Origin: Leisingera daeponensis
GTDB taxonomy: Bacteria > Pseudomonadota > Alphaproteobacteria > Rhodobacterales > Rhodobacteraceae
Assembly: GCF_019801465.1 (NCBI RefSeq)
Contig: NZ_JAHVJA010000002.1
Location: 186,001 to 250,000 of the forward strand
Direction of reading: 5' to 3'
Length of the DNA stretch: 64,000 nt
Of this stretch, positions 32,597 to 60,878 are shown piece after piece. Numbering within the stretch: the first letter of the stretch is position 1; every line of letters begins with the position of its first letter. The notes beneath the pieces were generated by a model, which made no database searches, was not told the DNA's origin, and saw only the letters and a program-made list of their open reading frames with translations. Both the position numbers and the translations under genes were made by a program.

Positions 32597-32597
<1 letters not shown>
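31791..32597 (-). CDS. Secreted FG-GAP/VCBS-repeat protein
   Basis: 268 residues. The ATG at 32597 shares one base with the ferredoxin stop, suggesting coupling; an internal ATG (32564) is also possible. A basic stretch and hydrophobic segment (LCLGLAVAGPSALAAE) make a signal peptide cut near residue 40. Two Ca2+-binding FG-GAP/VCBS motifs are clear, LADVDGDGSPEVLVVE (about 110-125) and AADLDGDGHAEIAYVDRP (about 162-179), which suggests a small beta-propeller outside the cytoplasm. A functional link to the ferredoxin is not obvious. Confidence 0.72.
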
Positions 32598-32923
<326 letters not shown>

Positions 32924-33034
32924 TCAGCTCTCTTCCCTTTTCCGGTACTTGCGCGACTGTGTAGCCAAGCGCCTGCGCCGGTGCCACCCCCAATTGCGAC
33001 GCAGCCCTGCCGCTGCTGGACTTTCCGGCCGCAT

Positions 33035-33049
33035 GTTCTATATTTGTTC
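33035..33049. promoter_or_regulatory. LexA/SOS box, GTTC-N7-GTTC
   Basis: GTTC (33035-33038), seven bases, GTTC (33046-33049): an exact match to the direct-repeat LexA box of alphaproteobacteria. It lies 38 bases before the ATG of the DnaE2-fragment gene, in promoter position. LexA binding to this motif is established for the group; that this copy is functional is inference. Confidence 0.72.
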
Positions 33050-33086
33050 ACGCACGAATATTCTCAACCCCGGGGGGGATTTCCTC

Positions 33087-33545
33087 ATGCCAGCCCGCGC
33101 CCCGGCCACTGCCGCCGGCCCCGCAGCCCGCGCGACCGGTCCGCGCCCCGGTCAGCCCCCCGGCCAGCCCCCTTGGCCGCGCCCACCCCATTGCCTGCCG
33201 GCCTTCCGGCTGCAGGAGTCGCCGGAAGGCGCCCGCGTCACCGTCGCCGGGCTGGTGATCCTGCGCCAGCGCCCCGGCACCGCCAAGGGGGTGATCTTCG
33301 TCACGCTGGAGGACGAGACCGGCGTCGTCAACGTGATCGTCTGGCGCAAGATCTACGAGGCCTTCCGCCGGGCGGTGATCTCCGGGCGGCTGCTGCGCGT
33401 CACCGGACGGCTGCAGCGGGCGCATTCCGTCACCCATGTGATCGCCGAAACGGTCGAGGACATCTCGCCGATGCTCGACCTCTTGCTGGCGGATCAGGGC
33501 CGCCGGGATGATCCAGCCTTTGCGGACGGCCCCGAACTCAGCTAG
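33087..33545 (+). CDS. Short gene encoding the C-terminal OB domain of error-prone polymerase DnaE2 (remnant or stand-alone)
   Basis: 152 residues from ATG 33087, with a G-rich ribosome-binding site. The first 45 residues are Pro/Ala/Arg-rich and match nothing I know. From about residue 50 the chain follows the end of DnaE2/ImuC polymerases: ARVTVAGLVILRQRPGTAKG, FVTLEDETGVVNVIVWRKIYE and the final HVIAETVEDISPML. The roughly 900 residues carrying the polymerase active site are absent, as are imuA and imuB. A perfect SOS box lies just upstream. The simplest reading is an internal deletion of an imuA-imuB-dnaE2 cassette that kept its promoter and the last domain. A retained DNA-binding role is possible. 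Confidence 0.65.
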   Translation: MPARAPATAAGPAARATGPRPGQPPGQPPWPRPPHCLPAFRLQESPEGARVTVAGLVILRQRPGTAKGVIFVTLEDETGVVNVIVWRKIYEAFRRAVISGRLLRVTGRLQRAHSVTHVIAETVEDISPMLDLLLADQGRRDDPAFADGPELS

Positions 33546-33619: not shown

Positions 33620-34159
33620 ATGATGCCACCGATATCCCCCCCTTGGCGGCGCCTGGCGCCTGCCCTGCTGCTGGCAGCCCTGGCGGCGCTGCCCGCCTGC
33701 GTCCAGCCGCCGCCCGGCGGCCCCGGCAGCCCGCTCTCGCGCGAGGGGCGCTATGCCCCGCCCGGGGCGCCGCCAGATACCTGCTGGAGCAGGCACACCT
33801 CCCCCGCCGTCATTGAGACCGTCACCAGCCAGGTGCTGGACGCACCGGCGCAGCTGGACGCAAGCGGCCGGGTCGTCCGCCCCGCGGCCTTCCGCACCGA
33901 AACCCGGCAGCACATCGTCACGCCGCGGCAGGAGCACTGGATCGAGATCCCCTGCCCGGCGATGATGACGCCGGATTTCATCCGCACCATCCAGCGCGCC
34001 CTGGCCGCCCGCGGGCTCTACCGCGGCCCGGTGCACGGCCAGATGGACGCCGCCACCCGCAAGGCGGTGCAGCGCTACCAGGCGCCGCTGGGGCTGGACA
34101 GCGGCACCCTCACGCTCGCCTCCGCCCGCAAGCTAGGGCTGGTGGCCGTGGCGGGCTGA
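33620..34159 (+). CDS. Lipoprotein with peptidoglycan-binding domain
   Basis: 179 residues; ATG 33620 or the adjacent ATG 33623. A signal peptide ends in the lipobox LPAC (Cys near residue 27), so the protein should be lipid-anchored. After a Pro/Gly-rich linker, the C-terminal 60 residues match the peptidoglycan-binding 1 fold: DFIRTIQRALAARGLYRGPVHGQMDAATRKAVQRYQ. It probably tethers a membrane to the cell wall. Cysteines in DTCWSRH and IPCPAMM may form a disulfide. Partners unknown. Confidence 0.8.
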   Translation: MMPPISPPWRRLAPALLLAALAALPACVQPPPGGPGSPLSREGRYAPPGAPPDTCWSRHTSPAVIETVTSQVLDAPAQLDASGRVVRPAAFRTETRQHIVTPRQEHWIEIPCPAMMTPDFIRTIQRALAARGLYRGPVHGQMDAATRKAVQRYQAPLGLDSGTLTLASARKLGLVAVAG

Positions 34160-60454: not shown

Positions 60455-60878
60455 CAGCCTCACTCCTTTCTGAAGCCCGGCTGCGGGCCCAGTCCGCCGC
60501 AGCCGGTTCAATTGCAGTTCCTCAGGATGCAAGCGGCCGCCCGGTGGCCCGCCGGCCGCCGGTCAGCAGATTTCCAGATGCTGGAGTGGCCATTCTTGCG
60601 CCCTGCTGAGGGCAGAATTCGCCCCCAGATGTTGCCAAAACGTTAACAGGGTTTTCCGCTGGTTTTACGCGGCATGTTCCCGCCGGCCGGTGGCGGTTTC
60701 CCGCCGGCGCGAGCGGATTTACGGACAATTTGGCGAAAGTCCGCTGTTGCAGAATCCGGGCGCGGTCCGGAAGCGGCGCGGAGGTGCCGGGCAGGGCCTG
60801 CCCGCCGCCGGAACAGACGCCCCAAAGCGCTGCTGGACGGGCGTTTCCGGACCGCGCTGAGCCCGCCGGGCACGCGGG
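60455..60878. other. Non-coding interval of 424 bases
   Basis: Only GC-rich sequence with one AT-richer patch around 60633-60668 (GCCAAAACGTTAACAGGG and GGTTTTACG), which could hold the leftward promoter of the two small genes. No ribosome-binding site with a plausible frame, repeat or RNA gene was seen. Confidence 0.5.

Follow-up and report, generated by a model that had tools for sequence, protein, structure and literature searches.

The OB-domain gene and its LexA box

The window, by which we mean the whole stretch of 64,000 nucleotides that was analysed, holds a short gene on its forward strand whose protein contains the C-terminal OB domain of the error-prone polymerase DnaE2 and no polymerase core, the latter being encoded on contig C10 of the same genome. 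The gene lies between two genes outside the system considered here and is preceded by a LexA-type box with probable promoter elements. The features of the locus are as follows.

32597-32920, reverse strand: 2Fe-2S ferredoxin gene (PF00111), the divergent neighbour that marks the OB site, outside the system
33016-33021, forward strand: probable -35 element CTGGAC, 17 bases 5' of the -10 element, read from the sequence and a putative part of the promoter
33035-33049, forward strand: LexA (SOS) box GTTC-N7-GTTC, GTTCTATATTTGTTC, an exact match with zero mismatches
33039-33044, forward strand: probable -10 element TATATT within the LexA box, likewise read from the sequence
33087-33545, forward strand: gene of 152 aa for the stand-alone OB domain of a split DnaE2, with its ATG at 33087 and its stop codon ending at 33545, assigned by its NF004225 match, AlphaFold and Foldseek
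33620-34159, forward strand: gene with a peptidoglycan-binding domain (PF01471), on the far side of the OB gene, outside the system

The identity of the protein was established by profile searches and structure prediction. Residues 36-133 match positions 942-1039 of the 1047 in NF004225, the profile of error-prone DnaE2 (E 3.5e-32), which bears out the preliminary description of a 152-residue gene with only the last domain of DnaE2 behind a LexA box, and residues 51-125 match the Pfam OB family PF01336 (E 2.5e-12; 47 bits against a cut-off of 27). The domain is of the DnaE2 type and not that of the replicative DnaE, with 111 bits for NF004225 versus 31 bits for the best Pol III alpha model, and its score against the SSB family, 16.4 bits, is under the Pfam SSB cut-off of 26. 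An AlphaFold model based on 45 aligned sequences has a mean pLDDT of 81 and exceeds 90 across most of the OB body, a confident part between a head and a tail that are both loose; Foldseek matches the model to the OB folds of RPA, Stn1 and the Asp/Asn-tRNA synthetases and, together with the strand order of the model, these matches identify the predicted structure as an OB fold. Sequence searches of the PDB gave no match at E 0.01 with the OB profile, and nothing better than E 1, to E. coli Pol III alpha, with one fused OB domain. The C-terminal SRDF motif is not present in the window protein. Compared with eight near relatives, the gene has a pN/pS of 0.24-0.37, the signature of a reading frame under purifying selection.

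The LexA box is as perfect as first described and does precede the gene, at a distance of 37 bases from the ATG rather than the 38 given earlier. A single box of this kind is near chance level (two perfect boxes in the window against 1.16 expected from shuffles, and 133 genome-wide against 116 for a reversed control pattern), so the case for it rests on conservation. Within 250 bases upstream of the OB gene, a perfect GTTC-N7-GTTC is found in 80 of 84 stand-alone orthologues and has one orientation throughout (the orthologues without it are G014, G056, G083 and G147), whereas control spacers of 4, 5, 6, 8, 9 and 10 bases gave 0, 0, 3, 0, 0 and 1 boxes. This recurrence of the short form with its box in as many genera of the family is what the preliminary description had itself named as a sign of a genuine stand-alone gene. 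Upstream of the box, a TTG or TGGAC occurs about 18 bases away in 74 of the 80 boxed orthologues; seven other offsets gave 3 to 33 of 80. The core of the box starts with [T/C]A in 70 of 80. When the first in-frame ATG after the box is taken as the start, a rule biased to short distances, the start codon lies 1-5 bases 3' of the box in 67 of 80, which suggests that those relatives make a leaderless SOS transcript, shut off by LexA sitting on the -10 element; the window gene has a longer leader than they do. The motif agrees with the alphaproteobacterial LexA box consensus in a passage of PMC3323433 and, being a promoter box that is conserved in orthologues, it marks the gene, as judged from sequence, as a putative member of the alphaproteobacterial LexA regulon. 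The second perfect box in the window, at 60506-60520, has no clear gene start just 3' of it and was taken as a chance occurrence.

The rest of the cassette and the distribution of the two pieces

Genome searches with NF004225 and PF00817 confirm that neither the polymerase core nor imuB lies at the OB locus, as had been noted, and place both on other contigs. NF004225 matches the genome in three places: the window OB gene (contig C2, positions 942-1039), a DnaE2 core at C10:75317-78199 (positions 5-938, above the family cut-off) and a 1173-aa frame on C6 that scores below the cut-off and was taken as DnaE1. The core is 978 aa long, ends a short way past the expected start of the OB domain and has a one-mismatch box, GAACAAAACAAGAAT, directly 5' of its start codon. 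A whole-genome search with PF00817 found a Y-family gene of 563 aa at L186:5273-6964, taken as imuB, with a perfect box about 40 bases 5' of its start; it lies about 30 kb from the dnaE2 core, and no imuA was recognised by eye beside it. The check proposed earlier, a search of the genome for another imuA-imuB-dnaE2 cassette, recovered an OB-less core and a boxed imuB, and no full-length DnaE2 was found with NF004225 in the whole genome, which leaves the suggested competition with a full DnaE2 without its partner. By these matches the cassette is dispersed in this genome, with DnaE2 itself in two pieces.

We searched 198 genomes of the family with the OB protein and with NF004225, repeating 30 of them at a looser threshold, and transcribed the genome classes by hand from the search results. 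Among the matches listed, 83 genomes have an OB-less core, 85 a full-length DnaE2 and 84 a stand-alone OB gene, with both an OB-less core and a full-length DnaE2 in G035. Again among the matches listed, the stand-alone OB gene is found in 79 of the 83 genomes with a split core, in none of the 84 with full-length DnaE2 only, and in one (G051) of the 21 without DnaE2, nine of which were searched for fragments; no OB gene was found there for the split cores of G044, G064, G162 and G180. Another four genomes (G061, G068, G118 and G158) were counted as having an OB gene without an intact split core: they hold only pieces of a core, ending at profile positions 938-942 in the last three and cut by a contig edge in G061. 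G051, given as complete in 7 contigs, has a stand-alone OB gene with a box (L279) and imuB; no DnaE2 core was found in the genome, nor any trace of one within 15 kb around the OB gene. Three candidate stand-alone OBs (G178, G009 and G021), which keep the SRDFH tail, were excluded before the counts because they are the termini of full-length genes that lie at the edge of a contig or close to it. In the 13 split genomes that have both pieces on one contig, core and OB gene are separated by 4 kb (G194) to 2.9 Mb in linear coordinates.

Beyond the family, we drew 134 genomes class-wide, as a sample of the class, and 64 of them have a DnaE2 at E 1e-220. Three of the 64 are family members, with cores that end at position 938 in the genome under study and in G215, and with a full-length gene in G055; outside the family, 60 of 61 DnaE2-bearing genomes reach the OB end of the NF004225 profile, the match in G277 ending at position 915 within a 1133-aa frame. 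Among the best 80 of 582 named relatives, whose counts are not to be taken as frequencies, 41 have a stand-alone OB as judged by frame length (38 of these with a perfect box), 34 have a fused one and 5 run up to the edge of a contig or of the sequence fetched. Within these best 80, the stand-alone form occurs in Ruegeria atlantica, R. marina, Tritonibacter litoralis, Pelagimonas varians, Mameliella alba, Tropicimonas sediminicola and two Roseovarius species, and the fused form in a third Roseovarius (R. autotrophicus) as well as in Rhodobacter maris, Thioclava pacifica, Paracoccus and Sinorhizobium. From the names of these relatives we infer that the split clade belongs to the Roseobacter group of the Rhodobacteraceae.

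The split cores carry boxes of their own. If one end base is allowed to vary, a box lies near the start of 79 of the 83 (28 of them perfect), mainly in the opposite orientation (GAAC-N7-GAA[C/T] in 73 of 83), and the same loose pattern with spacers of 5, 6, 8 and 9 bases occurs at 1 to 3 of 83. The box is often about 20 bases 5' of the start codon, with one mismatch. Of the full-type dnaE2 genes, 4 of 81 have the loose pattern 5' of them, which fits operons in which dnaE2 stands behind imuB. In the upstream regions of 16 full-length genes, the order is box, gene in the place of imuA (assigned from its position), imuB and dnaE2 in G050, G065, G015 and G116; the box is just 5' of imuB with dnaE2 behind in G036, G120, G046, G052, G101 and G009, and directly before dnaE2 in G004, G017, G037, G179 and G023, the region of G089 running off the contig. 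This series suggests stages in which the box stood before the gene in the imuA place, then before imuB, then before dnaE2, leading to the split state.

ImuB was matched at E 1e-25 in all 62 split genomes asked (of 83), in G051, and in 8 of 9 genomes asked with full-length DnaE2 only (G023 being without a match); at the same threshold it was found in none of the 8 asked of the 21 without DnaE2. Some split genomes, such as G040, G184 and G191, have ImuB in two pieces, and in G194 the match consists of the last 346 residues. In two long-branch split genomes, G172 and G090, imuB and the OB-less dnaE2 core are same-strand neighbours; detachment of the OB domain can thus leave imuB and core together.

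A proposed two-gene DnaE2: evidence, alternatives and history

The same divergent 2Fe-2S ferredoxin gene, in the same orientation, adjoins 82 of the 84 stand-alone OB genes, the two away from this site being those of G194 and G083. We asked for this locus in 30 comparison genomes and found the ferredoxin gene in 28 (none in G028 and G162), namely 22 with full-length DnaE2 only, 4 without DnaE2 and the split G194 and G083; 27 of the 28 have no OB gene there. Synteny is supported at the 30 ferredoxin loci of these 28 genomes by an FG-GAP neighbour in 17 and the peptidoglycan-binding neighbour in 16, the latter being matched in 50 of 87 OB loci examined. Since 21 of the 22 genomes with full-length DnaE2 only have no OB gene at the ferredoxin locus, it is more likely that the OB gene arrived at this site than that it was left behind. 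The remaining one, G002, has a short decayed OB remnant by the ferredoxin gene (L281, about 2139-2285) with no LexA box, in a genome with two full-length DnaE2 genes and no split core; from this single case, loss of the split core seems to be followed by decay of the OB gene.

Rates of evolution connect the OB gene to its distant core. Across 76 genomes, the correlation between the pairwise distances of OB and those of the core is 0.93 (0.69 without four long branches), compared with 0.57 for OB and the adjacent ferredoxin (0.30 without those branches). The OB-core correlation carries shared ancestry, part of which is removed by controlling for neighbours: partial correlations are 0.65, 0.62 and 0.65 given the FG-GAP, peptidoglycan-binding and ferredoxin neighbours (59, 48 and 72 genomes, with long branches, G083 and G194 left out), and for each of the three controls 0 of 500 permutations were as high. 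By this measure the OB rate co-varies with the distant core more than with its own neighbours. As to residues, 26 of 112 OB columns have the same residue in at least 90% of both 82 stand-alone and 78 fused OBs; 18 of 112 are much more conserved in the stand-alone set, although more variation is to be expected among the fused OBs, which come from a broader tree. Among full-type genes 77 of 81 keep the SRDF motif, which occurs in a single stand-alone OB out of 84 and in none of the 83 split cores; with the motif gone from both pieces, a mere division of the old protein does not account for the split form. The Pro-rich head, at first described as new, is not wholly so: a W-x-[R/K]-P element 5' of the OB domain recurs in 71 of 84 stand-alone genes, and is indeed without counterpart in the fused ones (0 of 78).

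Our preferred explanation, to which we give a probability of roughly 0.77, is the fission of DnaE2 into two LexA-box genes, one for the core and one for an OB subunit that acts in trans. The genome comparisons show that the pieces are co-inherited, with conserved LexA-type boxes, a kept imuB, one shared neighbour, conserved OB residues and an OB rate that follows the core; from these we infer the trans action of OB with core. In a large clade of Rhodobacteraceae, gene fission would have split this SOS error-prone C-family polymerase; one gene encodes the polymerase core, ending about where the OB domain should start, and a second gene (33087-33545 in the window) the OB domain alone. Damage, by lifting LexA repression, would induce the core, the OB protein and ImuB together. 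The OB domain is thought to hold the single-stranded template in other C-family polymerases, and here the OB subunit would join the core in trans and do likewise. Several observations sit less easily with this explanation, namely the four split cores for which no OB was found, the presence of OB and imuB without a core in G051, the loss of the SRDF motif from both pieces, and the one mismatch in most core boxes.

That the gene holds only the last DnaE2 domain speaks for a scar left by an internal deletion, as the preliminary description proposed, and so for a fragment that would be decaying or act as a dominant negative. That reading has become highly improbable: the core is intact elsewhere with no full DnaE2 found in the genome, the short form and its box are conserved across the family, the frame appears to be under purifying selection, and the ferredoxin locus holds no OB gene in 21 of the 22 genomes with full-length DnaE2 only. 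On these sequence comparisons the gene in the window has the look of a functional gene and not of a scar. A different proposal is that the protein has become a free-standing SOS single-strand-binding protein, derived from DnaE2 and uncoupled from the core, which might for example protect gaps or serve ImuB or DnaE1. Separate placement and regulation of the OB gene would suit such a role, as would its retention with imuB in coreless G051, and the 18 columns more conserved in stand-alone OBs may mean that the domain has gained contacts of its own, subject to the wider range of the fused set. Against this proposal, among the matches listed the OB gene is in none of the 84 genomes with full-length DnaE2 only and not in 20 of the 21 without DnaE2, nine of these 21 having been searched for fragments; it decayed in G002, which has full-length DnaE2 without a split core, and its rate follows the core. 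The core would, moreover, lack a domain that 60 of the 61 DnaE2-bearing genomes sampled outside the family have kept. We therefore regard uncoupling from the core as improbable.

The history of the split is a separate matter, compatible with the fission and trans action preferred above, and probably involved either two independent fissions, in the main clade and in G194, or a single fission that re-fusion later reversed in G017. In a core-domain tree of 164 rows and 941 columns, 82 of the 83 split cores lie on one side of a branch with support 0.995, and the core of G194 falls among full-length genes; in a 43-row tree it pairs with the full-length DnaE2 of G017 (SH-aLRT 99). The AU test rejects one clade of split cores (p 0.010) and does not reject one of split cores plus G017 (p 0.33). 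In G194 (L174 2127-6870) the OB gene lies about 1 kb downstream of the core, with an opposite-strand gene of 280 aa between them; this OB still has the SRDFH tail, and a perfect LexA box of its own precedes it. On the side of a single origin, a Gly-Ser run joins core and OB in G017 (L059/L265), and the OBs of G194 and G083 carry, as judged by eye, the W-P-R-P-P element of other stand-alone OBs, which is found in none of the fused OBs examined. The OB tree (112 columns) places G194 with other stand-alone OBs weakly (0.66), with G033, G083, G090 and G172 outside, and at this support does not choose between the two histories; the W-x-[R/K]-P element and the OB tree lean toward a single origin of the stand-alone OBs. 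G017 may itself be a natural re-fusion, sister to the split G194. The OB domain of G083 (L181), away from the ferredoxin site, is part of a 400-aa frame with a long head and no box, and its end bears what appears to be a worn remnant of the SRDF tail.

A more ambitious reading, which we consider unlikely at present, is that of a naturally two-subunit translesion polymerase. Its OB domain would be an SOS-dosed subunit, produced on its own, that could limit or gate DnaE2 or be lent to ImuB or the replicative DnaE1. If this is true, the amount and timing of the OB protein would set the extent of mutagenic synthesis. With fission and trans action as the preferred explanation, evolution would have run a domain-deletion experiment on a mutagenic polymerase, with the domain kept as a separate gene under a damage switch, and would have done so in a large, well-studied bacterial group. 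The role of the OB domain in DnaE2 could thus be tested directly via one small gene, and work that studies or expresses such an OB-less DnaE2 by itself would be missing a subunit. The SOS regulon of roseobacters would also gain a gene that has likely been overlooked.

Comparison with known systems

The halves of cyanobacterial DnaE are spliced to one chain by inteins. This intein-split polymerase, mentioned in a passage of PMC3919608, resembles ours in being a C-family polymerase encoded in two genes; here, in contrast, the break lies between domains. Another parallel is split ImuB, an iPolY with a stand-alone ImuB-C, reported for DnaE2X systems in parts of a 2026 survey of bacterial polymerases (PMC12926913): a mutasome subunit is likewise in two genes, but it is ImuB that is split there, whereas here it is the polymerase, with the OB domain freed. 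The main text of that survey, as far as term searches cover it, has no 'OB domain', 'OB-fold' or 'Rhodobacter', OB being a domain label in a figure legend.

A third known system is DnaE2/ImuC of the imuA-imuB-dnaE2 cassette (NF004225). The window OB corresponds to the last 100 or so profile positions, a LexA-type box is present and imuB is kept, so that by its profile match the genome has the ImuB of the ImuA-ImuB-DnaE2 mutasome. The differences are that core and OB are separate genes, neither with an SRDF tail, and that dnaE2 and imuB are about 30 kb apart. A cassette of the imuA-imuB-dnaE2 type is named on a Dinoroseobacter shibae plasmid in a passage of PMC9426580, and imuB-dnaE2 is among the top covarying pairs of Phaeobacter inhibens in a passage of PMC10883770, where the two are in one operon, unlike in the genome studied here, and the OB gene goes unmentioned.

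Our literature search, which covered the main texts of papers mostly from open journals, found no report of a separate DnaE2 OB gene, and term searches within the accessible text of PMC6473078, PMC10421592 and PMC6511836 gave zero matches. Passages of Timinskas et al. 2013 (PMC3919608) describe several DnaE2 sequences without an OB domain, which fits the split cores reported here, and an SRDF[H/R] C-terminal motif in about 77% of DnaE2; those passages mention no separately encoded OB partner. OB-less DnaE2 is therefore already known, and within the literature searched it is the separately encoded OB gene that is the new element.
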